The position numbers were made by a program, and so were the translations under genes. Shown here piece by piece: positions 7,921 through 59,728 of a DNA stretch of 64,000 nt (its first letter is position 1; each line of letters opens with the position of its first letter). The stretch is from an uncultured Latescibacterota bacterium (GTDB taxonomy: Bacteria > Latescibacterota > UBA2968). Below the pieces are notes generated by a model. The model searched no databases. It had not been told where the DNA came from and saw nothing but the letters and a program-made list of their open reading frames with translations. The DNA lies in contig OY282377.1 of assembly GCA_958295785.1 (NCBI GenBank), positions 696,394 to 760,393 on the forward strand, in the 5' to 3' direction.

Positions 7921-7960
7921 CCATAAAGGAGTGCCTCTCAACGCACTCGGAGGATATTTT

Positions 7961-8932
7961 ATGAAGCGCGTGATCAAACCCGAAGGCGCGTGCCACATCG
8001 AGATCGAAGATGTGCCTTTGCCAGAGATTCGACAAACAGAAGTGCTCATCAAAACGGAACGCACCCTGATCAGCAGAGGGTCTGAGATCTGGCGGCGGTA
8101 CGTGCGGGAAGAAGCGATTGATCCACAAATTATGGGCTATTCGCTGGCCGGTACTGTTGTGCAGGTGGGCGCGCAGGTCAATGATTTTTCAATGGGAGAA
8201 CGGGTGGCCGCGCTCGCGCCACACGCCGAGTACGCGGCTGTTGAGGCTGTCCATGCGCGCAACAAACCATCGGTGGTTTCGCTGCCCGATGCGATTACAG
8301 CCGAAGCCGCGACTTTTTGGCCCCTGCTGACGAGTTCAGTGTTGTGGATGCGGGAAACCGGGGCGGGTCAGAACGATACGATGGCGATTTTGGGACAGGG
8401 ATTGGTGGGCAGTTGCTGTATGCAAGTCGCCCGGAACTTACAAAATTGCCGCGTGATTGCGGTCGATGCGTTGTCCCTGCGTTGCGATTTGGCCGCGCAA
8501 TTGGGCGCAGACGCCGTGGTGAATGCCAGTCAGACCGATCCGATTGCCGCAGTGCGGGAACTCACAGAGGGCCTACGCGCAGATGTCGTGGTCGAAGCAG
8601 TGGGCGGACGCGCAGGCGCGAAGGCATTTTTGCAGGCGCAAGATATGGTGCGGCGCGGCGGCTTGTTGCAGGTTATCGGATTGTATGAAGGCGAACCCCT
8701 GCCCCTCGATTCGTCAAAAATTCAGGGCAAACGCTTGGTGGGCGGGTATTTGGACAGGGCGCGTCGGCCCCGAGGATCGGATTTGGCCCTTCAGTTGTTG
8801 ATGGAAGGAAAAATTCAAACCGAGGCGATGGTGACACACCGCTTCGATTTTGAAGACGCCGCAACCGCATTCGATTTGCTGTACACGCGCCTCGACGAAG
8901 CGATGGCTGTGGTGTTGGTCTGGAAGGATTGA
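7961..8932 (+). CDS. Medium-chain dehydrogenase/reductase (zinc-independent-looking)
   Basis: 323 residues with the GroES-like N-terminal fold and a Rossmann domain (LGQGLVGSCCMQVARN) of the MDR alcohol dehydrogenase superfamily. The usual catalytic zinc ligands (the GHE and early Cys motifs) are not evident, suggesting a quinone-oxidoreductase or sugar-dehydrogenase-like member. GGAGGATATTTT precedes ATG 7961, which I prefer to a GTG at 7931. It closes the left-hand catabolic gene run. Its NAD(P) substrate pair cannot be deduced. Confidence 0.75.
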   Translation: MKRVIKPEGACHIEIEDVPLPEIRQTEVLIKTERTLISRGSEIWRRYVREEAIDPQIMGYSLAGTVVQVGAQVNDFSMGERVAALAPHAEYAAVEAVHARNKPSVVSLPDAITAEAATFWPLLTSSVLWMRETGAGQNDTMAILGQGLVGSCCMQVARNLQNCRVIAVDALSLRCDLAAQLGADAVVNASQTDPIAAVRELTEGLRADVVVEAVGGRAGAKAFLQAQDMVRRGGLLQVIGLYEGEPLPLDSSKIQGKRLVGGYLDRARRPRGSDLALQLLMEGKIQTEAMVTHRFDFEDAATAFDLLYTRLDEAMAVVLVWKD

Positions 8933-8949
8933 CGCCATCGGGAAGGAAT

Positions 8950-8982
8950 ATGAACGGTGAACTTGGAAGCAGGCACAAATGA
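8950..8982 (+). other. Possible 10-codon leader minicistron before the NO VEIN-like gene
   Basis: GGAAGGAAT precedes an ATG that opens a 10-codon frame. Its TGA overlaps the ATG of the following large gene as ATGA. The big gene itself has only a weak ribosome-binding site (GGAAG), so the short frame could couple translation. It may instead be chance or a remnant. Confidence 0.3.
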
Positions 8983-11900
8983 CTGACACGCAGAAAAAAA
9001 GAAGATGCATTAAGTCTTTGGCTCATGAGAATCAGGTGTTCTACAACACACAGGATGGCCGCGGGGCACTGCGCGCACTTGATCTGGCTTCCGAGCACCG
9101 CTGGATTTACCTTTTCGAGTTGGTTCAGAACGCCCTCGATGCCGGCGCGAAATCAATCGCGCTACGCCTTGCAGAAGAAGATGCCTTGATCTTCCAGCAC
9201 GACGGAACCAAGGAGATCAATGACGAGGATGTAAAGGGACTCTCAAAAATTTTTCGCTCGACTAAAGGGGCCTTGTCCGTGGGGTTCATGGGAATCGGCT
9301 TCAAGAGTATTTTCAGGCGTTTCGGCGAGGTTCGGATTTCAGGATGGGATTGGACCTTTCGCTATGAAGTGAGTCAGGAGCGAGGCGAAAAATTTGGGGA
9401 TGTGCAACCCGACTTAATTGGGGCGGTAACGCCGATCTGGGATGACACGATTGATATGCCAGAAGCGGACTTCACGACCCGATTTGAGATGCGTCGGCGA
9501 ATAAATCCTACAGCCGATCTACGATCCGACTTGGCGTCTTTCCTTCCCGCCGATGATGGCACGTCTCTGGCGATCTTAGCTGGGTCTGGCTTGAAACGTC
9601 TTGAAGTAGATGGTCAGGTTTGGGAACTCGACACCCATGAGGATCCCGATGGAAGTGTGGAAGCGACTGCTCTCTCCGAAACAGAGAAGCGGCTCTGGCA
9701 ACTTTTCCCTGTGAAATTCACGCCATCGTCGGAAGCCATAGCCCGCTTCCTTGAGCACCGAAGGATTCGACCTTCCAAAGATGAAAGCAAACAGGTGTAC
9801 GCCGAGGCTGCCCGGCCACGCCAAGTACTGGGCGTGTTGCTTTTGAACAACGATGGCATGCCTGCACCACCAAAAAGAGGACGAGTCTATGCCACATTGC
9901 CCACCGAGGTCATGTTGCCGTTCGGTCTTCATATCAATGCGGACTGGCTACTGAACATCTCGCGGACAGGGCTTATGGAAATTGAGGAAAATGCTTGGCA
10001 ACGCGGTCTTGTGGACCAGATTGCGGATGTGTTGTCGTGCTTCCTAGGTTGGGTTGCCCGCACATTCTCGGAGACTGATGGGGCCAAGGCGGCTTTTGCC
10101 GCGCTCTCACCGCCAACACCCGAGGTAAGCGGTCTTGAAGCACTCCTCGCTAAAGATCGTTGGCTGTCGAGATTGCGGAAGCGACTTGAGGATGCGGCAG
10201 TGCTTCCCGTGTGGACCGAGGAGACAGACACCTTGACTTTTGCGAAGCCGATCCAAGTCATCGTTCCACCTGAGCCGCTGGCGGAGGCGTTCAAGCAACA
10301 CCCGGCATTGCAACCAGCGGTTCTTTTGAACGGATCTGTTCTTGTGCGTGATGTGCTCGGAGAGGGTGCGCGAACATTGCTACGCCGTGCAGGTCTTATA
10401 GCGGAGATGTCGCCGCAAGATTTGGAGAACGCTTGGGCGGATGGCTTGGAAAATTGGTGGGAGGTACTGCCTGACGCTGAGACGAAACGCCGCGACTTGC
10501 TTTTTCGAGTGTGGGGGGCTGTGTCCAAGCTGATGTCTCAAGGATCTTGGTCGACTATTGATCTTCCATGCGTCCGAACCGTCGATGGGACATGGCGATC
10601 CGTGAACGAGGTGGAGTTTTTCAACGAGGCTTTGCCTTCGGAAGGCGAGCCGGGCGGCGGCGAGACGCACCTGCTGATTCAGCCGTTCTTTCCGTATGCG
10701 GACCGTCGTTTGCCTGAAAGTTGGATCAATGCACTTCGACAAATGAAACGGAGAAAGGAGTCACTGTCACAGGCTTTGGATTGGGTAGAAGATAACGCCA
10801 AAAGTATCTCTCTCCGTGAAGTCATTGAGGACGCTACGACGGCCTTAGCATCCTCGCCGACGCCGGACTGGTCAGTACTCGTCCCGCTTGGACACTGGGC
10901 TATGCACAGAAATCGGCCCGATCTACTGACCTATGTGCTTGTGGAATCGGAAACTCATCAGTACGGAACACATGTCAATGAGGCACTCTTGGCAAATCCC
11001 TATGTTGAGCGTGGACAATGCCGACGCCACTTGTTTCCAATGAAACCACCCGTTTCCGTAGCTTATTTAGAACAGGATCCTAGGAACGCAGGGCGACATA
11101 AGTGGCGTGATTTCTTTGAGAAAGCAGGAGTGCAAGGCGCACTCAAAGTGCAACCTATCGAGAGTCAAGCTGGACGATGGAACAAAGGGCACGTAGCGAA
11201 GTTCTTGGGGCTTGATCTCGAAGATATCTACAGATCGAGATCGAATAAAAAAGGCTACAAATTGCTGGACTTCGATATCGAGGAACTTCCCGAACCGGGC
11301 GCGTCCAAAGAAGCATGGGCCGCGGTTGCCGCATGGCTTGAGGATGGCCTCAGTGCTTTACATGACAAGGGCAGCAGGAAGTGCGAGTACTTTTTTAGGT
11401 ATTCACGTTCCAAAACAGGTAAGCGGCAGAGTGCGTGGGTCGCCAAGCTCTCCGAACTCGCCTGGGTTCCTTGCGATGATGGTGAGCTCCGTCGTCCGCG
11501 AGATGTGCTTTCAGACTTTGACCCTGTGCGTGAGGGCGTACCAGTAGCAAAACTGTCGCCTGAACTCTTGTCCGTTCTTCAGCAAGAAGGGGTGGCCTTC
11601 GGCACAGCGATTCCCGAAGCTACATTGGTTTACAAACTCGCTACGGTGGGGTCGCAACTCGATGCGGAAGAATTGGCGGAGTTGCTTGGAGAGATCCGCG
11701 AACAGATTGCAACCGACGAAGACGGGCATGAATCTGAACAGTTTGAACAGGTTGTAAGAAAACTCGCTGTGCCGTCAAGCAGTGGTGAGCGCATTCCGAT
11801 CAATCGCGTCGTTCAGCGGGTCGGAGGGCAACTCCGTGGCAGGCTTGGTGGCTGGGTTCTCCCATTGGAGCGTATTGACGAAGTGCTATGGGAGGAATTG

Positions 11901-13472
11901 AAACATCCCGATTTCCCCTATGAGTTTCCAGACACGACAACGGGTGAGCAAGCGTTGGCTTATATCCGGGATGTTTGGGCGCGTGCTCGATCATCCCCCG
12001 AGCGGTTGGCAAACGAGGTGCGCGATGTGTTGCCGACTGCGTATGCGTACTGCCTGAAGGATTGCGACGAGGACGATTCTCTGTCCAAGCTGTGGGACGC
12101 CGCTGTTTCCTACGCGGCCGTCTTTGCTGAGGGGAAGTGGATCTTTTTGGATGATGCGGAGAACATCTACTTGGATGATCTCGAAGATCGAAGGTTTCTC
12201 CCCGAAAATGCCGAGTTGCAAATTGTCACGGGTGGACATCTTGGTAATTCTCTATCTGATCGGATTCGCACCGCGGCCGCGCTTGAGTTGCCATGCCTGT
12301 CTTCTGCCATTGAGATGAAATGGAACGAGACAGGCAAGAAGGGTGATCCCGACTGGAGCGACAAGTTTACGCTCATCTGCAAACTTCTTCACTCAGTTCG
12401 AGGCGAGCATGTGGATGATGGAGACAAGACAGAAACCGACCAAGCTAAATATTTACGACTTTGCCTGTTCGAAAAAATTGAGCTTTCTGTAAAAATCGAA
12501 AAGGGACCATATAAGCCAGTGCCCGTGAACGCTCGCTTGGACAGTGGCGTTCTAAAGATCGCTGGCCGCCCTGTTCAATTTGGAGCAGACGCTACCAAAG
12601 AGCTTTTGCGCGACTATTCTTTTCGCCAACGTGGAGACCTGGCCGCTGATCTCACCGGAATGTTGGGAGCAATTGACAACGAGGAGGATTTCCGGCTGGC
12701 CGTGGAAAAATTTAGACGATCCTTTGCTCCAGACTTTGAGTTACCGTCGGGAGAATCAGGCCCGGAAAAGCCGGTGGATTTGGGAAATGATCTGGCCAAC
12801 ACTGGAAATGCTAACGAGCCTGGTATGGGAAGTCAGGTAAGCGAAGATGAGCCGATGAATACAAATGGGAAAACAACTCCTGAGAATGGCGATTCCAATA
12901 GCGTGGGAGGTTCCTTTACGCGAGATCGTGCCTTTGCTCAACAAAAAGCTTTGAAGAAGAAGTTGGAGGATTCGCTCAAAGGTGAGATCACACCTGATGA
13001 CGAAGCCGCAGAGACAAGCGAGACAAACCAAGGGACTGAGGCGGGTGGAAGCGAGGGGGGACTGCTTGGGGACGAGATTTACCGCCGAGTTGCCATGCAA
13101 TACGAAAGAAAACTGAGTCGTGTCCCGAAGCTTGGTGATCCTCGCCAAGAGGGCTGGGATATCCGCAGCGTTGATCTGGAAGGATCGGAACGCCTGATTG
13201 AGGTGAAAGGTAAAGGATGTCCTTGGGAGGGAGACGAGGTTGTGGAATTGAGTCGCGCACAAGTACACAAGGCGTTCGAGATGTCAGATGGTCAGGCAAC
13301 AGGTTCTTGGTACCTCTATGTTGTGGAGCGGATAGACAATAGCAACTATCGAGTGCTACCGATTGAGAATCCAGCACAAGTTTCCGGCAAGTGGATGCTC
13401 AGTGGTGGAGCTTGGCGGATGATCGCAAAGGAGTGCCGCTCAATCACACTGGAGGAGGCCAATGATGTATAA
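8979..13472 (+). CDS. Giant GHKL-ATPase protein with C-terminal DUF3883 (NO VEIN-like) domain
   Basis: 1497 residues. The N-terminus is a GHKL/HSP90-like ATPase domain as in sacsin: N-box ELVQNALDA (E47, N51, D54), HDG (D75-G76) and the lid motif GFMGIGFKS (residues 102-110). A long middle region of about 1100 residues has no motif I recognise. A low-complexity linker (about 1270-1370) leads to a DUF3883/NOV_C domain with a PD-(D/E)xK-like signature, D1394 and E1408-V-K1410 (RLIEVKGKG). The same end-to-end architecture is known from the plant NO VEIN protein and from bacterial genes in restriction/defence islands. A DNA-targeting or phage-defence role is therefore inferred, not shown. Codon use differs from flanking catabolic genes. 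Confidence 0.85.
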   Translation: MTDTQKKRRCIKSLAHENQVFYNTQDGRGALRALDLASEHRWIYLFELVQNALDAGAKSIALRLAEEDALIFQHDGTKEINDEDVKGLSKIFRSTKGALSVGFMGIGFKSIFRRFGEVRISGWDWTFRYEVSQERGEKFGDVQPDLIGAVTPIWDDTIDMPEADFTTRFEMRRRINPTADLRSDLASFLPADDGTSLAILAGSGLKRLEVDGQVWELDTHEDPDGSVEATALSETEKRLWQLFPVKFTPSSEAIARFLEHRRIRPSKDESKQVYAEAARPRQVLGVLLLNNDGMPAPPKRGRVYATLPTEVMLPFGLHINADWLLNISRTGLMEIEENAWQRGLVDQIADVLSCFLGWVARTFSETDGAKAAFAALSPPTPEVSGLEALLAKDRWLSRLRKRLEDAAVLPVWTEETDTLTFAKPIQVIVPPEPLAEAFKQHPALQPAVLLNGSVLVRDVLGEGARTLLRRAGLIAEMSPQDLENAWADGLENWWEVLPDAETKRRDLLFRVWGAVSKLMSQGSWSTIDLPCVRTVDGTWRSVNEVEFFNEALPSEGEPGGGETHLLIQPFFPYADRRLPESWINALRQMKRRKESLSQALDWVEDNAKSISLREVIEDATTALASSPTPDWSVLVPLGHWAMHRNRPDLLTYVLVESETHQYGTHVNEALLANPYVERGQCRRHLFPMKPPVSVAYLEQDPRNAGRHKWRDFFEKAGVQGALKVQPIESQAGRWNKGHVAKFLGLDLEDIYRSRSNKKGYKLLDFDIEELPEPGASKEAWAAVAAWLEDGLSALHDKGSRKCEYFFRYSRSKTGKRQSAWVAKLSELAWVPCDDGELRRPRDVLSDFDPVREGVPVAKLSPELLSVLQQEGVAFGTAIPEATLVYKLATVGSQLDAEELAELLGEIREQIATDEDGHESEQFEQVVRKLAVPSSSGERIPINRVVQRVGGQLRGRLGGWVLPLERIDEVLWEELKHPDFPYEFPDTTTGEQALAYIRDVWARARSSPERLANEVRDVLPTAYAYCLKDCDEDDSLSKLWDAAVSYAAVFAEGKWIFLDDAENIYLDDLEDRRFLPENAELQIVTGGHLGNSLSDRIRTAAALELPCLSSAIEMKWNETGKKGDPDWSDKFTLICKLLHSVRGEHVDDGDKTETDQAKYLRLCLFEKIELSVKIEKGPYKPVPVNARLDSGVLKIAGRPVQFGADATKELLRDYSFRQRGDLAADLTGMLGAIDNEEDFRLAVEKFRRSFAPDFELPSGESGPEKPVDLGNDLANTGNANEPGMGSQVSEDEPMNTNGKTTPENGDSNSVGGSFTRDRAFAQQKALKKKLEDSLKGEITPDDEAAETSETNQGTEAGGSEGGLLGDEIYRRVAMQYERKLSRVPKLGDPRQEGWDIRSVDLEGSERLIEVKGKGCPWEGDEVVELSRAQVHKAFEMSDGQATGSWYLYVVERIDNSNYRVLPIENPAQVSGKWMLSGGAWRMIAKECRSITLEEANDV

Positions 13473-13667
13473 GTATGAGATCATTTTTTATTGGCGCGAT
13501 GAAGACCTCGCTTTTGTGGCGGAAGTGCCGGAACTTTTCGGATGTATGGCGCGTTGCGACGCGAGAGAAGCCGCGCTCAGGCACGTCAATCGCTCTAGAT
13601 TGACACCGCGAGCGCGTTCGGCGATCCAATACCCAAACCCAAGGGCGAGCGTCTGATGCCGGCGTGA
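13462..13667 (+). pseudogene. hicB: Broken HicB-family antitoxin gene
   Basis: The gene starts with GGAGGAGG and ATG 13462, overlapping the 3' end of the NO VEIN-like gene by 11 bases. The first about 45 residues are HicB-like (YKYEIIFYWRDEDLAFVAEV, then ALRHVN). Near 13600 the frame breaks. The normal HicB tail is recovered in another frame (IDTASAFGDPIPKPKGERLM, stop at 13665-13667). Compared with intact HicB proteins, about ten bases appear to be missing at the break. In the original frame a 64-residue product would end at 13656. No hicA is adjacent, so this is a decaying orphan antitoxin. Confidence 0.75.
13615..13667 (+). repeat. hicB 3'-end repeat, left copy
   Basis: This segment coding the GDPIPKPKGER tail is repeated imperfectly at 15823-15882 (GGCGATCCAATACC is identical in both, and the ends GATGCCGGCGTG and GACGCTGGCGTG align). 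The two copies flank the ligase-methyltransferase cassette. Confidence 0.55.
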
Positions 13668-13717
13668 GGCCACATAGTACGGGCGCTTCAAAGACGATTA
13701 AATCCAAGAGGTGGGAC

Positions 13718-14920
13718 ATGGCATCTGAGCATCTGCACAGTGCGAGCAGCGGCGAGAATGACGGGGATATCGAGATCACCCTTGGGATTGAAGAGGAATT
13801 TTTTCTCGTCGATCCCGAATCCCGCGACCTGCTCGCGGACCCGGACATCGGCATTTTCGAGACCTGCGAAAAGAACAGCGGGCCGCACAAGGTCACGCGG
13901 GAATTTATCCGCAGCCAGATCGAGACCAACACCCGAGTCTGCGCGTCTATCGCCGACTTGCGCGCCATGCTGTGCGAGACCCGCCGGGTAGCACTCGACG
14001 CGGCGGAGCAACACGGGGCCGCGTTGCTGGCTGCCTCGACCCATCCCTTTGCGGAATGGCGGGCGCAACTGACCACCCCCGGGGAACGCTACGAACACTT
14101 TGTGGTCATCTTCCAAGAAACCTTGCGCCGGTTCATCATCGGCGGCATGCACATCCACGCGGGTTTTGGGGATCCGGATTCGCGCATCCGGGTTATGACC
14201 GCGCTTCGGCGCTATCTTCCCCTGCTCCACGCGCTCTCCACCTCGTCGCCGTTCAACGCCGGGCGCGATACGGGGTTCAAGTCCTACCGCCTAAACCTCA
14301 TTGGCAGCCTCCCGCGCACCAGCCTGCCCGGCCCGTTGTGGTCGCGCGCAGAATACGACCAACTTTTGACCGACTACCGGCGCATGGATTTTCTCAGGGA
14401 TGGCAGCGAGTTGTGGTGGGACATCCGCCCGTCTCAATTATATCCGACCATCGAGTTGCGAATCTGCGACATCTGCCCGCGCATTGAGGACGCCGTGTGC
14501 GTCGCGGCGCTCTACGCCTCCCTCATTCGCTATCTTTTGCGGCAGGATCGAGAAGGCGCGTTGCCGCCCGAGCCGCACACCGAGATCATCGCCGAAAACC
14601 GGTGGATCGCCCAGCGCTATGGCGTGTTTGGCTTCCTCGGCGACACGCGAGACGGCGGGCGGATGGACATCGAAGATTACGCGGGCGAACTCGTGGAGGT
14701 ATTATCCGGCGACGCCCGTGCGCTCGGTTGCGAGAAAGCGTTGCGCCACGCCTTGTCCATCATCCGCAATGGCAGCGGTGCCGACCGACAAATCGACCAT
14801 TTCCGCCTCCGTCGTTTGGAAGGCGATACAGACGAGCAGGCCCTGCGTTCTGTGGTCGATTTGGTGATCGCAGAGACTCGGGAGGGAATAGAGGAAACGG
14901 GTTGCCAAAGTTCTCATTAA
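13718..14920 (+). CDS. Carboxylate-amine ligase, YbdK/GCS2 family
   Basis: 400 residues, slightly longer than the usual about 370. It matches glutamate-cysteine ligase family 2 (GCS2/YbdK): N-terminal GIEEEFFLVDP for ATP/metal binding, the GGMHIHAGF motif, ELWWDIRPS, and ELRICDICPR. The family joins a carboxylate to an amine using ATP; YbdK has weak gamma-glutamyl-cysteine ligase activity, and natural substrates are often unknown. The start at 13718 follows AAGAGGTGGGAC; an earlier in-frame ATG at 13664 overlaps the broken hicB. It lies 22 bases before a methyltransferase, forming a two-gene cassette flanked by hicB-tail repeats. Confidence 0.85.
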   Translation: MASEHLHSASSGENDGDIEITLGIEEEFFLVDPESRDLLADPDIGIFETCEKNSGPHKVTREFIRSQIETNTRVCASIADLRAMLCETRRVALDAAEQHGAALLAASTHPFAEWRAQLTTPGERYEHFVVIFQETLRRFIIGGMHIHAGFGDPDSRIRVMTALRRYLPLLHALSTSSPFNAGRDTGFKSYRLNLIGSLPRTSLPGPLWSRAEYDQLLTDYRRMDFLRDGSELWWDIRPSQLYPTIELRICDICPRIEDAVCVAALYASLIRYLLRQDREGALPPEPHTEIIAENRWIAQRYGVFGFLGDTRDGGRMDIEDYAGELVEVLSGDARALGCEKALRHALSIIRNGSGADRQIDHFRLRRLEGDTDEQALRSVVDLVIAETREGIEETGCQSSH

Positions 14921-14942
14921 AATTGAAAAGGGGCCCAATTTC

Positions 14943-15872
14943 ATGCCGCCACTTCAACCCGAAACATCTACGCGCAAACGCGGGACGAGCGCGACTGCGA
15001 CCCTCGCGGCGGGCATCCGCGCACATCATTGGCAGTGGAATAAATCCCCGATCTTCGCCGACGATTGCGCGATTGATATGGTGTCATTTTTCTGGCGTCT
15101 CATCGTCAAGAACAAGCCGCTCAACTGGCTCGTGGTTCACAAACTGCTCGGCGCGTTCCATCCGATCCACACCGAGATCATTTTGCGGACGCGCTATGCC
15201 GAAGACTGTCTCATGGAGGCGATATCCAAAGGCGTGGGCCAATACGTGATTTTGGGCGCGGGACTCGATACCTTTTCCCTGCGCCACAAAAAACTCGCTG
15301 CCCGCGTGCGGATATTCGAATTGGACCATCCCGCGACTCAAGCGATGAAACGGGAGCGCGTGCGCCGCGCCAATGGCGACATCCCGCCCAATTTGGCGTT
15401 CGTGCCGATTGACTTTGAGACGGATCGCTTGAACGAAGCTCTTTCCCGCGCGGATTTTGATTCGCAGGATCCCGCCTTCTTTTCCTGGTTGGGGACGACG
15501 TATTATCTCACAAAAGACGCAATCAGAGAGACGCTCGGCTGTGTTGCAGACGCCGCTGCGCCTGGCAGTCGCATTGTTTTCGATTACAAACTCCCCAAGC
15601 ATCTCATCCCCGAACGCGGCTTGCCCCTCGCCGATAATTTGGATCGCTTTGTGGCTCGCCTCGGCGAGCCAATGGTGTCCGAGTTCACGCCCGAGGAATT
15701 GAATGGCGAGATGGCGCGCATCGGCTTTGTCGAGATGGAGACCCTCCCGCCCGAGGCGCAAGCGCGCCGCTATTTGAAGAACAGACCTGACGTGGTTGAT
15801 CCCGCGCCGAATTTTTCCTTCGCGCTATTTGGCGATCCAATACCAGAATCCAAGTGCGAGCCGAGCGGTTGA
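14943..15872 (+). CDS. Class I SAM-dependent methyltransferase (PPM1/TcmP-like)
   Basis: 309 residues resembling the leucine-carboxyl-methyltransferase/TcmP group. Visible are RYAEDCLMEAISKG, the SAM-binding loop VILGAGLDTFSLR, the acidic FELDHPATQAMKR and FFSWLGTTYYLT. AAAAGGGG precedes the ATG. The last dozen residues (GDPIPESKCEPSG) look like a HicB antitoxin tail rather than the family's usual C-terminus, so the 3' end may be chimeric. Pairing with an ATP-dependent ligase suggests amide formation plus O-methylation of a small acid; this is inference. Confidence 0.8.
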   Translation: MPPLQPETSTRKRGTSATATLAAGIRAHHWQWNKSPIFADDCAIDMVSFFWRLIVKNKPLNWLVVHKLLGAFHPIHTEIILRTRYAEDCLMEAISKGVGQYVILGAGLDTFSLRHKKLAARVRIFELDHPATQAMKRERVRRANGDIPPNLAFVPIDFETDRLNEALSRADFDSQDPAFFSWLGTTYYLTKDAIRETLGCVADAAAPGSRIVFDYKLPKHLIPERGLPLADNLDRFVARLGEPMVSEFTPEELNGEMARIGFVEMETLPPEAQARRYLKNRPDVVDPAPNFSFALFGDPIPESKCEPSG

Positions 15873-16036: not shown

Positions 16037-16537
16037 ATGGCGCAACCTTACCGATATAGCAACCCACCTGTCGCACAAGCACGCTGTGAGTTTCGCTTTC
16101 AACCGGGTCGGAATGGGGACACCCGTCAAAGAAAGCACCTTGAAGCCCGGCTTTATGCGGCCTTTGAAGCCGAGTTTTTGGAGGACGGTATCGGTCATCC
16201 CGCCGAGGAGATTATTGCGGAGGCGTTGCGATCTGTGGATGACCAACCCGTTCTCGACTGGTTCATGGCTTTCTGCTCGGATGCAGCATGCCCGTCCTTT
16301 GCGGCATCGGTTTTGCGTTGTCTTGGGCGTCAGGAGAATACGGGGACGATTTCATGGCGTGCCGAGATCGTGCGCGGCGGGTTGGCTATGGATGATGTGA
16401 AGATTAGAGACGCCGCGGTGCAAGCCGCGGAATCGTGGAGGGACCGGGATATACTCGATATTTTGAGGTTGCATATCGAGCCGGAACCTTGGCTTCGAAA
16501 CTACATTTTGGACGTCATTGACGACCTACAGGAGTAA
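16037..16537 (+). CDS. Hypothetical HEAT-repeat-like protein, first of a two-gene unit
   Basis: 166 residues. From about residue 35 onward the protein is alpha-helical, with HEAT-like pairs (for example IRDAAVQAAESWRDRDILDI). The first about 24 residues (YRYSNPPVAQARCEFRF) look like the start of a different small family (TIGR04255-type proteins), so the gene may be an N-terminal chimera. TGGGAGAAA precedes ATG 16037. The stop is 3 bases before the next gene, so the two are translationally linked. Function unknown. Confidence 0.6.
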   Translation: MAQPYRYSNPPVAQARCEFRFQPGRNGDTRQRKHLEARLYAAFEAEFLEDGIGHPAEEIIAEALRSVDDQPVLDWFMAFCSDAACPSFAASVLRCLGRQENTGTISWRAEIVRGGLAMDDVKIRDAAVQAAESWRDRDILDILRLHIEPEPWLRNYILDVIDDLQE

Positions 16538-16540
16538 GCG

Positions 16541-17053
16541 ATGTTCTTGGCTCGCAAAATCTCACGCGCCAAATGGCCGGCCACGCGGGAATTGTCGGTC
16601 AGCGAGATTCCGGCCGACGCCGTAACCGGTGACCTGCGTACCCAAAATAATGCCCTATCCTTCTGGCAGTGTGGCATGGGTTCGGAGGACAGTGTCAATG
16701 ATGCCGCACTGGCGATAGCCTCAGCAGGAGATCGCGTCGATAAGATCGACATCGTTTGGTTTTCCGATGAAGATCTGCGGGCCGATGGTCAGACGTGGAG
16801 AGACACAGAGGGACGAACACCTGTCACAGACTTGGTCGGGCGGCACATTGATGTGGAGGGCCTCAATTACGCACGCCTCGGAAAAATCGCTCGTCGCATT
16901 GTTGTTGCAATAGAGGAGAATCGATACCTGCGCCTAACCAAAGCGCGTGTCACCAAACTCCTCGCTACAGCAGTCGGACAAGGGCGTATTGACCTTGACG
17001 ATCTCCGGGAAGGTGTGCAAAAAGAAGTGCGAAAGTCGCCAACGAAAAAATAG
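16541..17053 (+). CDS. Hypothetical protein, second of a two-gene unit
   Basis: 170 residues with no signal peptide or membrane span. The start MFLARKISRAKW and the segment ALSFWQCG look like a conserved family seen beside helical-repeat partners in other genomes, but I know of no assigned function. The C-terminal part is basic (QKEVRKSPTKK). It starts 3 bases after the upstream gene ends and stops 8 bases before the DapF-family gene. Both genes sit at the right edge of the accessory island and may be a stand-alone two-component unit, possibly toxin-antitoxin-like; that is speculation. Confidence 0.6.
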   Translation: MFLARKISRAKWPATRELSVSEIPADAVTGDLRTQNNALSFWQCGMGSEDSVNDAALAIASAGDRVDKIDIVWFSDEDLRADGQTWRDTEGRTPVTDLVGRHIDVEGLNYARLGKIARRIVVAIEENRYLRLTKARVTKLLATAVGQGRIDLDDLREGVQKEVRKSPTKK

Positions 17054-47435: not shown

Positions 47436-47447
47436 TTACTCTGTAAA

Positions 47448-48158
47448 TTAAGTTATCCTAAGTTTTGAATTGTCTGGATAAACGCGTTGATAATGGGTAT
47501 TCATCTTGTCTCTGGCCTTGGGCAAAGTGAACTGCCAATTCAAGGGGATGCCCTTGGCCTCCCGCTCCTGAAAGAAGGCCAAAACTTCCCGGCGCAGTTC
47601 CGCCTGCGTCGCAATGCGCCTATTCAAACATCCTCGCGCCAGAGCCGAAAATTCGATCTCGATCATGTTTAACCAACTCGCCGACTTGGGAGTAAAGCAG
47701 AACTCAAACTTCTGCGCGAGGGCAAACGCCTCATCGGCCGGCAAGTAACGATAGAAGGCATGGCGAGTATGCGTATTGAGATTGTCTTGCACCAAGCGGA
47801 TTTTCTCCGCCTGTGGCCAATGCTGTGTCAGCGCCTGACAAAAGTGGGTGTCTTCCTTCATCGTGCGCCGAGGATAGATTTCGGCAAGCCGTTTGCCGGT
47901 TAAAGGCTCAATGGCAGCCAACAGCGCACGCGAGCCGTGTTTGGTATAGGCATCATGTTCTTTGGTCACTTGGCCTGTTGTCAGGGGCAAGGGATCCAGG
48001 ACTTGTCCGATGAGAAAACAAGGACGTTCATCAAAGCAGACCACAGGAACGTTGGGATCATAAGGTTGGTCATACAGCCAAAGCAAGGCTTCCATGCGTG
48101 CGAGAAAGGACGCATCCACTTTGCGGATGCACCAGGTTTTCTTCAAGTGGGGCTTCAA
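47448..48158 (-). CDS. IS630 transposase, DDE part (orfB), copy A
   Basis: 236 residues. The DDE catalytic residues lie in VVCFDERPCFL, LVQDNLNTHT and WLNMIEIEFSAL. It lacks its own good start. The likely product is a fusion with orfA made by a -1 frameshift on the A tract at the junction, giving LKKNELKPHLKKTWC. It differs from copy B at about six residues, so both are recent. Confidence 0.9.
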   Translation of the reverse strand: MKPHLKKTWCIRKVDASFLARMEALLWLYDQPYDPNVPVVCFDERPCFLIGQVLDPLPLTTGQVTKEHDAYTKHGSRALLAAIEPLTGKRLAEIYPRRTMKEDTHFCQALTQHWPQAEKIRLVQDNLNTHTRHAFYRYLPADEAFALAQKFEFCFTPKSASWLNMIEIEFSALARGCLNRRIATQAELRREVLAFFQEREAKGIPLNWQFTLPKARDKMNTHYQRVYPDNSKLRIT

Positions 48159-48577
48159 TTCGTTTTTTTTAGACTCGTCTTGACATGCGTGTGTGAGAGA
48201 TGCTCACAATAGCCCAATTCCACGCACTGATCCGCCAAGAGGCGCAACGTCCATCTGCCATGGCCTGCCGGGGGGGTTGAACAGGCCAAGGCGGTGATTT
48301 GGGCCCGTTGCTTGCCGGTCATCTCCACCGGGCGTCCTGGCCGCGGGGCATCTTTGAGGCTGTCCAAGCCGAGGGTGCGGTATTTCTTTGCCCAATGACT
48401 CAGGGTCTGCCCGGTCATGCCGAGGGTTTGAGCCCCTTGGGTGTAGGTTTTGCCTCGGTCGAGTTCAAGCAAGCCCAAAGCGCGTTTGTAGATTCGGGCT
48501 TTTTGGTCTCCTTTGGTGATCAAGGCGGTCAAAGTGTCTCGGTCTGTGGGGGTGAGTTGGACGTGTTGTTTGGGCAT
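48155..48577 (-). CDS. IS630 transposase, helix-turn-helix part (orfA), copy A
   Basis: 140 residues from ATG 48577, preceded by AAGGAGGCGTTCGC. GKTYTQGAQTLGMTGQTLSH is the winged-helix DNA-binding motif, and DAPRPGRPVEMTGKQ the linker typical of IS630. It ends just after the slippery A tract. An ATG 11 codons earlier lies at the IS edge and is less likely. Confidence 0.9.
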   Translation of the reverse strand: MPKQHVQLTPTDRDTLTALITKGDQKARIYKRALGLLELDRGKTYTQGAQTLGMTGQTLSHWAKKYRTLGLDSLKDAPRPGRPVEMTGKQRAQITALACSTPPAGHGRWTLRLLADQCVELGYCEHLSHTHVKTSLKKTN

Positions 48578-48666
48578 GCGAACGCCTCCTTGAAACAATT
48601 GAAATTCCAAAGTATTTAATTTACAGAGTAATCAACAGCGGAGTTACGCAATAACGGGATAATTCC

Positions 48667-58472: not shown

Positions 58473-58486
58473 TAGTACTCTGTAAA

Positions 58487-59197
58487 TTAAGTTATTTTAA
58501 GTTTTGAATTGTCTGGATAAACGCGTTGATAATGGGTATTCATCTTGTCTCTGGCCTTGGGCAAAGTGAACTGCCAATTCAAGGGGATACCCTTGGCCTC
58601 TCGCTCCTGGAAAAAGGCCAAAACTTCCCGGCGTAGTTCCGCCTGCGTCGCAATGCGCCTATTCAAACATCCTCGCGCCAGAGCCGAAAATTCGATCTCG
58701 ATCATGTTGAGCCAACTCGCCGACTTGGGGGTAAAGAAGAACTCAAACTTCTGCGCGAGGGCAAACGCCTCATCGGCCGGCAAGTAACGATAGAAGGCAT
58801 GGCGGGTATGCGTGTTGAGATTGTCTTGCACCAAGCGGATTTTCTCCGCTTGTGGCCAATGCTGTGTCAGGGCCTGACAAAAGTGGGTGTATTCCTTCAT
58901 CGTGCGCCGGGGATAGATTTCGGCAAGCCGTTTGCCGGTTAAAGGCTCAATGGCGGCCAACAAAGCACACGAGCCGTGTTTGGTATAGGCATCATGTTCT
59001 TTGGTCACTTGGCCTGTTGTTAGGGGCAAGGGATCAAGGACTTGTCCGATGAGAAAACAAGGACGTTCATCAAAGCAGACCACAGGAACATTGGGATCAT
59101 GAGGTTGGTCATACAGCCAAAGCAAGGCTTCCATGCGTGCGAGAAAGGACGCATCCACTTTGCGGATGCACCATGTTCTCTTCAAGTGGGGCTTCAA
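58487..59197 (-). CDS. IS630 transposase, DDE part (orfB), copy B
   Basis: 236 residues with the same catalytic motifs as copy A. The only in-frame start at the junction is a TTG without a Shine-Dalgarno, supporting expression through a -1 frameshift. The slippery A tract is kept although one flanking base differs from copy A (CTC instead of CTA). Confidence 0.9.
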   Translation of the reverse strand: MKPHLKRTWCIRKVDASFLARMEALLWLYDQPHDPNVPVVCFDERPCFLIGQVLDPLPLTTGQVTKEHDAYTKHGSCALLAAIEPLTGKRLAEIYPRRTMKEYTHFCQALTQHWPQAEKIRLVQDNLNTHTRHAFYRYLPADEAFALAQKFEFFFTPKSASWLNMIEIEFSALARGCLNRRIATQAELRREVLAFFQEREAKGIPLNWQFTLPKARDKMNTHYQRVYPDNSKLKIT

Positions 59198-59616
59198 TTC
59201 GTTTTTTTGAGACTCGTCTTGACATGCGTGTGTGAGAGATGCTCACAAGAGCCCAATGCCACGCAGTGATCCGCCAAGAGGCGCAACGTCCATCTGCCAT
59301 GGCCTGCCGGGGGGGTTGAACAGGCCAAGGCGGTGATTTGGGCCCGTTGCTTGCCCGTCATCTCCACCGGGCGTCCTGGCCGCGGGGCATCTTTGAGGCC
59401 ATCCAAGCCGAGGGTGCGGTATTTCTTTGCCCAATTGCTCAGGGTCTGCCCGGTCATGCCGAGGGTTTGAGCCACTTGGGTGTAGGTTTTGCCTCGGTCA
59501 AGTTCAAGCAAGCCCAAAGCGCGTTTGTAGATTCGGGCTTTTTGGTCTCCTTTGGTGATCAAGGCGGTCAAAGTATCTCGGTCTGTGGGGGTGAGTTGGA
59601 CGTGTTGTTTGGGCAT
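59194..59616 (-). CDS. IS630 transposase, helix-turn-helix part (orfA), copy B
   Basis: 140 residues from ATG 59616, preceded by AAGGAGG. It differs from copy A at about six residues (for example TQVAQT for TQGAQT). It ends in the same overlap with orfB. Confidence 0.9.
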   Translation of the reverse strand: MPKQHVQLTPTDRDTLTALITKGDQKARIYKRALGLLELDRGKTYTQVAQTLGMTGQTLSNWAKKYRTLGLDGLKDAPRPGRPVEMTGKQRAQITALACSTPPAGHGRWTLRLLADHCVALGSCEHLSHTHVKTSLKKTN

Positions 59617-59728
59617 GCGAACGCCTCCTTGAAATAATTGAAATTCCAAAGTATTTAATTTACAGAGTACTTAGTATAAGCAGGAGAGGTTATTCAGTAG
59701 GCTGGTGGTTTTAGAATAGGAGATGAAA

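Follow-up and report, generated by a model that had tools for sequence, protein, structure and literature searches.

Tiamat is said to have been reported by Millman et al. in 2022 as an anti-phage system, and NO VEIN of plants, the founder of the NOV_C (DUF3883) domain family, is a giant eukaryotic protein that carries an Hsp90-like ATPase together with NOV_C and has a developmental, non-defence role. The mechanism of Tiamat was listed as unknown in a 2026 review (PMC12926258). In metagenomes, 100% of the Tiamat calls in plant samples were located on plant contigs (PMC12409356), and the plant sequences matched by the Tiamat models are presumably NO VEIN. DUF3883 was earlier described as an REase domain (PMC3710099). 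VcSduA, a GHKL-type Shedu protein (paraMORC3-like), combines an N-terminal GHKL ATPase and a C-terminal PD-(D/E)xK domain in one stand-alone protein, and both of its active sites are needed, as the E27A and K557A substitutions each abolish defence (PMC12137116). The catalytic arginines of sacsin and Hsp90 are R474 and R380, respectively (PMC9880540).

The DNA analysed here (the window) is a stretch of 64,000 nucleotides from an uncultured Latescibacterota bacterium, whose genome, a single contig of 5.66 Mb, encodes one NOV_C protein. A sequence-only reading of the window had proposed that this protein of 1,497 residues joins a GHKL/sacsin ATPase to DUF3883 and has a defence-type role. The gene was confirmed as a single intact ORF from ATG to TAA with zero internal stops, and E47, N51, GIGFKS, D1394, E1408 and K1410 are all found where that reading had placed them. 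Its features are as follows.

8979-13472, + strand: Tiamat (TmtA)-like protein with a sacsin/Hsp90-type GHKL ATPase and a DUF3883 PD-(D/E)xK domain (ORF; NOV_C, TmtA and NF047352 matches; full-length orthologues)
9105-9368, + strand: GHKL/Bergerat ATP-binding domain, residues 43-130 (invariant motifs; sacsin and HtpG/Hsp90 by profile)
9117-9140, + strand: N-box, E47-N51-D54
9291-9308, + strand: G2 loop GIGFKS, residues 105-110
9369-10073, + strand: Hsp90/sacsin-like middle domain, residues ~131-365, with R329 at 9963-9965 (conservation, model)
10074-12728, + strand: middle region, residues ~366-1250, predicted mixed alpha/beta (AlphaFold2 model; motifs conserved in orthologues)
13062-13454, + strand: DUF3883/NOV_C PD-(D/E)xK domain, residues 1362-1492 (Pfam, invariant motifs, AlphaFold2, Foldseek)
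13104, 13158 and 13200-13208, + strand: predicted catalytic residues E1376, D1394 and E1408-x-K1410, respectively

Both ends of the protein were recognised by profiles above their cut-offs. Residues 1368-1456 correspond to Pfam NOV_C (PF13020; E 5.5e-9, 36.4 bits, gathering threshold 22.1 bits), and residues 45-118 correspond to the NCBIfam family NF047352, 'sacsin N-terminal ATP-binding-like' (56.5 bits, cut-off 50 bits). The only other Pfam match was a sub-threshold one to SACS, and DUF4263, a feature of type I-D Shedu, was not found with Pfam. In addition, seven TmtA (Tiamat) models of PADLOC match the protein with a best E-value of 4.4e-35 (119 bits), these models being without a supplied curated cut-off and none of them spanning the protein end to end. 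Residues 45-611 are matched at E 4e-35, and residues 1273-1487 align with residues 1300-1507 of PDLC03969, the C-terminal region of TmtA. As in Tiamat (TmtA, PADLOC PDLC03964-PDLC03972), a single large protein with an Hsp90/sacsin-type N-terminus and, by the PDLC03969 alignment, a DUF3883-containing C-terminus is encoded by a stand-alone gene in a defence-locus context. However, the best match of 119 bits covers partial stretches whereas a full-length member from the same phylum scores 720 bits, and the function may have diverged from that of Tiamat because of this distance. Judged from the profiles and its chromosomal setting, the protein can most likely be assigned to the Tiamat family as a divergent member, with a clade of its own that comprises proteins of ~1,445-1,603 amino acids from Pseudomonadota, Acidobacteriota, this phylum, Planctomycetota and Myxococcota. 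The earlier reading is corrected in that the protein belongs close to a named family, Tiamat, that is reported to act against phages. VcSduA differs in its DUF4263 domain and in what seems to be a much smaller size (K557 is the catalytic lysine), whereas the window protein has DUF3883/NOV_C and a middle region of ~1,000 residues. The architecture of plant NO VEIN is related, and a link to it is drawn here only through the metagenome calls (PMC12409356).

For the ATPase module, thirteen positions are invariant in 58 sequences (E47, L48, Q50, N51, A52, D54, H74, G76, G102, G105, G107, F108 and K109), and by its N-box Glu/Asn and G2 loop the protein is a member of the GHKL superfamily. The protein alone gave a chance match only when searched against PDB; a profile of 11 relatives retrieved the crystal structures of sacsin SR1 (5v44-5v47, E ~1e-17) and many Hsp90s/HtpG. 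An AlphaFold2 model of residues 1-1200 built from the 58-sequence alignment (mean pLDDT 84.6, pTM 0.66) has TRAP1/Hsp90, PMS2, ParE/GyrB, MLH1 and MutL as its best Foldseek neighbours, which supports a predicted Hsp90/MutL/gyrase-type module at the N-terminus. Phage RIIA and topoisomerases, matched by Foldseek among viral proteins, are accounted for by the common GHKL fold. Throughout the family, the G1-box reads H74-x-G76 in place of the adenine-contacting Asp of the Hsp90 type (DxG), and since this Asp is replaced by His, adenine binding may differ. At the same profile position HtpG has D-N-G and sacsin has Y-N-N, so that sacsin also is without the Asp.

About 1,100 residues between the two terminal domains had been described as matching nothing recognisable. 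This no longer applies to ~235 of them (residues ~131-365), which form the Hsp90/sacsin-like middle domain; the remainder is a conserved alpha/beta region together with a variable linker, and matches TmtA-type proteins across long stretches. R329 is present in at least 90% of the 58 sequences and invariant in seven orthologues, and in the AlphaFold2 model it lies in a loop between a strand (318-320) and a long helix (339-362). By its position, R329 is a candidate catalytic arginine of the sacsin/Hsp90 type that would contact ATP; the arginine of sacsin is placed equivalently (PMC9880540). The model has pLDDT values of mostly 80-95 up to residue ~860 and lower values thereafter, and strand-turn-strand motifs that are repeated in the middle region by visual inspection ('LPVWT', 'LPCVRTVDG.W' and 'WVPCDDGEL.RP') are conserved in orthologues. 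The SR1 (SIRPT) repeat of sacsin provides the closest solved ATP-binding domain, but sacsin differs in having UBL, XPCB, J and HEPN domains, and it has not been described as carrying DUF3883. As sacsin and Hsp90 are the nearest solved structures at the N-terminus and the role of plant NO VEIN lies outside defence, a chaperone or a DNA-repair/housekeeping protein of the sacsin or MutL kind, with DUF3883 serving only to bind nucleic acid, deserves consideration. Such a role is improbable for a gene that is patchy within its genus, is inserted where congeners carry defence systems, is spread over phyla and keeps an invariant catalytic motif.

That motif is located in the C-terminal domain, where G-x-D1394 and E1408-x-K1410 are invariant across 36 of 36 diverse DUF3883 domains and an upstream glutamate, E1376, extends the pattern to E-D-ExK. 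An AlphaFold2 model of this domain (36 DUF3883 domains; pLDDT 81, pTM 0.76) is closest in Foldseek to the PD-(D/E)xK enzymes Hjc, RecU, the SPARDA effector and EcoRV, with modest E-values, from 6e-4 upward, as is usual for this fold. The kinship is based on fold comparison alone, since a profile of the domain found no match among PDB sequences. The model and the conserved residues support a PD-(D/E)xK core fold with the catalytic D and (D/E)xK, and the domain would be a metal-dependent nuclease with DNA as its likely substrate. Both folds that the sequence-only reading had predicted are thus present in structure models, and the resulting active-site map (E47/N51, R329 and E1376/D1394/E1408/K1410) is new.

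The most economical reading of this architecture is an ATP-operated clamp that would control a fused DNA nuclease, and we consider it probable, though by no means assured, that the protein is a divergent stand-alone effector of the Tiamat (TmtA) type against phages. The sacsin/Hsp90-type ATPase and the middle domain would form the clamp, likely as a dimer, which may detect a DNA or nucleoprotein state specific to infection; closure of the clamp, presumably accompanied by ATP hydrolysis, would free or position the C-terminal nuclease to cut DNA and so protect the cell from phage. The tested precedent for this reading is VcSduA, which loses its defence when either site is mutated (PMC12137116). 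Such an architecture is not by itself proof of defence, because plant NO VEIN, with a related one, has a developmental role; the defence-type role proposed earlier is supported by the TmtA match, by the defence locus in congeners and by orthologues located near restriction-modification genes or a dGTPase, and homologues did not prove to lie consistently outside defence settings. The SPARDA effector nuclease, one of the fold neighbours above, acts indiscriminately. This and the decay of one congener copy favour an abortive-infection effector, that is, a triggered nuclease that degrades the host chromosome or RNA so that the cell dies. This proposal overlaps with the clamp-controlled nuclease and differs in its target; the sequence gives no distinction between host and phage DNA, and we regard it as possible but clearly the less probable of the two.

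The genomic context of the gene is a short insertion between conserved genes.

7931-8932, + strand: conserved zinc-type alcohol dehydrogenase, left flank (Pfam; 81-83% DNA identity in congeners)
13465-13667, + strand: frameshifted relic of a HicB-like antitoxin gene (translation compared with intact congener copies)
13664-14920, + strand: passenger carboxylate-amine ligase, GCS2/YbdK (Pfam GCS2, NCBIfam PRK13515)
14943-15872, + strand: conserved LCM-family methyltransferase, right flank (Pfam; synteny, empty sites)

In most congeners the methyltransferase starts a few bases past the stop codon of the dehydrogenase, and positions 8933-14942 of the window (~6 kb) are therefore an insertion, which holds the large gene, the broken HicB-like antitoxin gene and the carboxylate-amine ligase. 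The large gene has a GC3 of 0.54 as compared with mostly 0.60-0.75 in its surroundings. An accessory island had been suggested for this position: a defence insertion is indeed present, but a long island is not, as both flanks are conserved metabolic genes. The suggested antitoxin relic proved to be real. The relic begins with a start codon that overlaps the stop codon of the large gene, it has 71-76% DNA identity to congeners, and an intact congener copy matches HicB_lk_antitox (E 5e-10). At least five congeners have this antitoxin gene in intact form at the same general locus. The orthologue of the carboxylate-amine ligase sits at a different locus in congeners, and the gene seems to have been relocated beside the defence gene; its true start may lie downstream of the listed GTG.

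Between the dehydrogenase and diaminopimelate epimerase lies a defence hotspot of the genus. One congener (G035) has at the same insertion site, directly adjoining the dehydrogenase, a 1,697-residue helicase with an MTES_1575 nuclease that is a divergent relative of Hhe/ProA/PDC-S37 (L054:8350-13440, - strand). Another (G030) carries SIR2-APAZ with a short Argonaute, a SPARSA-type pair (L057:11596-14795, + strand), and a third (G038) carries homologues of HEC-01A/HEC-01B (L055:12055-13823, + strand), with members of this cluster also in G033 and G034. PADLOC gave zero matches on the flanking genes tested. Where congeners carry defence genes, the window has two small genes of 166 and 170 amino acids (16037-17053), for which no Pfam or PADLOC match was found.

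A second hotspot is occupied by relatives of the same gene. A full-length copy, 58% identical to the window protein, is present in one congener (G029) at a locus different from that of the window, and at this site another congener (G036) retains a remnant.

L016:13120-14237: decayed Tiamat-like gene of G036 at the second hotspot, covering residues ~980-1172 and ~1313-1492 with one in-frame stop

Within the genus, the gene is thus found as a full copy in one of ten congeners and as a remnant in another. Two further genomes (G035 and G032) have a cassette of a sacsin-type ATPase and a DrmD-like helicase at this hotspot instead. In one such locus (L022:5317-12591, - strand), the cassette consists of the DrmD-like helicase, a 205-residue protein, the sacsin-type ATPase with an HNH-like C-terminus and a 113-residue protein, with no recognised domain in the 205-residue partner; a similar cassette is also present in G032. 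An AAA-ATPase_like/PDDEXK_9 gene of 515 amino acids (L014:10568-12115) has many copies across genomes of the genus. The decayed copy in G036 and the broken antitoxin gene next to the window gene would fit an accessory gene that is neutral or in decay and at present functionless, but a frame of 1,497 codons that has remained intact, with its motifs kept among homologues only ~58% identical, makes this very improbable.

Outside the genus, the nearest relatives (48-61% identity) are from Pseudomonadales, Acidobacteria, Ca. Multivorans, another gammaproteobacterium and an alphaproteobacterium, and more distant ones (~30%) are from Planctomycetota and Myxococcales; they were found by an alignment search of genome contigs, the single-sequence search having given none. 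The frame is kept full length at 58% identity in the congener and at 48-58% in other phyla, so it is not a chance ORF. In the tree, the close group branches in the manner of a star and its members are not arranged by phylum, which implies that this large gene has been transferred between phyla. Vertical inheritance within the genus was considered for the copies of G029 and the window genome (G000), and found no support, since these copies lie at separate sites, share only 58% identity and form no supported clade. A search of plasmids gave one weak haloarchaeal match, and phage records gave none. The alphaproteobacterial carrier is bin95, a symbiont of the sponge Aplysina aerophoba, and defence genes are enriched in sponge symbionts (PMC5649159). 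With at least one carrier thus a documented sponge symbiont, the other carriers and the Poribacteria-like organism of the window may be sponge symbionts as well, and the phylum with the two hotspots has been little studied and is probably associated with sponges.

Among the neighbours of the orthologues are a type II-like methyltransferase ~1 kb away (L127), a type III restriction-modification pair (L129) and a defence-type dGTPase (L126), and no conserved partner is present beside the copies of the window, L014, L126, L127, L129, L130 and L131. The first two are consistent with a restriction-type enzyme, in which clamp and nuclease would cut DNA that lacks host methylation and the methyltransferase would be encoded nearby or elsewhere, the protein being a restriction-modification component rather than a sensor of the infection state. 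Relatives of 1.05-1.14 kaa with the same C-terminus accompany a DNA methyltransferase and a UvrD-like helicase, and GHKL proteins are found in restriction-modification operons (Iyer et al. 2008, PMC2292703). For the window protein this is nevertheless unlikely, as a DNA methyltransferase is absent among the annotated neighbours of the gene, none was recognised beside the L126 and L130 copies, and the giant class has no consistent partner. A fixed partner gene was also sought among the five giants outside the genus, with none being consistent. Recurring partners, for which a neighbourhood survey had been proposed, are thus lacking for the giants, but SNF2 helicases and methyltransferases do recur in the other classes.

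For the wider family, the retrieved complete-gene relatives share the ATPase chassis and divide, by motif patterns, into 40 with an HNH-like C-terminus and 13 shorter ones with a PD-(D/E)xK C-terminus. A SNF2-type helicase is encoded within 200 nt on the same strand in 33 of the 40 and in none of the 13 (Fisher p 9e-8, a value inflated by relatedness), whereas a DNA methyltransferase is located within 5 kb in 10 of the 13. The HNH-like end is a treble-clef without the usual histidines, and its activity is doubtful for this reason. The cassettes of a SNF2 helicase (DrmD/HmaA-like) and a sacsin-type ATPase (L022, L018, L135) have the same ATPase chassis as the window protein and, within its genus, occupy the second hotspot; they differ in their HNH-like C-terminus and a usually adjacent helicase, and the window gene has neither. 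An adjacent SF2 helicase, a Hma/DISARM-like trait, is absent, the neighbours of the window gene being the dehydrogenase and the carboxylate-amine ligase.

The presence of two nuclease-like ends with different partners on one chassis argues for the C-terminus as the weapon, with the Hsp90-like part acting as a switch. The comparison of the two-nuclease chassis, the two chromosomal hotspots and the cross-phylum spread are, like the active-site map, new. More speculatively, and with odds that we would put rather low, the sacsin/NO VEIN-type Hsp90 clamp could be a general bacterial sensor of invading DNA with plug-in nucleases, PD-(D/E)xK in the one-gene giants and methyltransferase operons and HNH-like beside SNF2 helicases; Tiamat, the cassettes and plant NO VEIN would in that case be united in a single mechanistic family, NO VEIN having its origin in phage defence. 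If the mechanism of a clamp that controls a nuclease holds, plant NO VEIN and the sacsin-type ATPases gain a bacterial immune counterpart.

Two minor observations were made in addition. An apparent four-gene system (L205:2587-13288) that recurs in about eight loci encodes an ATPase-DUF3883 protein, a PcrA-like helicase with a Cas4-like end, a DNA methyltransferase and an unrecognised protein of 754-905 amino acids. Elsewhere in the window, a two-ORF segment (236 and 151 amino acids) that is probably an insertion sequence is present twice, at 47437-48630 and 58476-59669, the copies being 96.7% identical over 1,194 bp.
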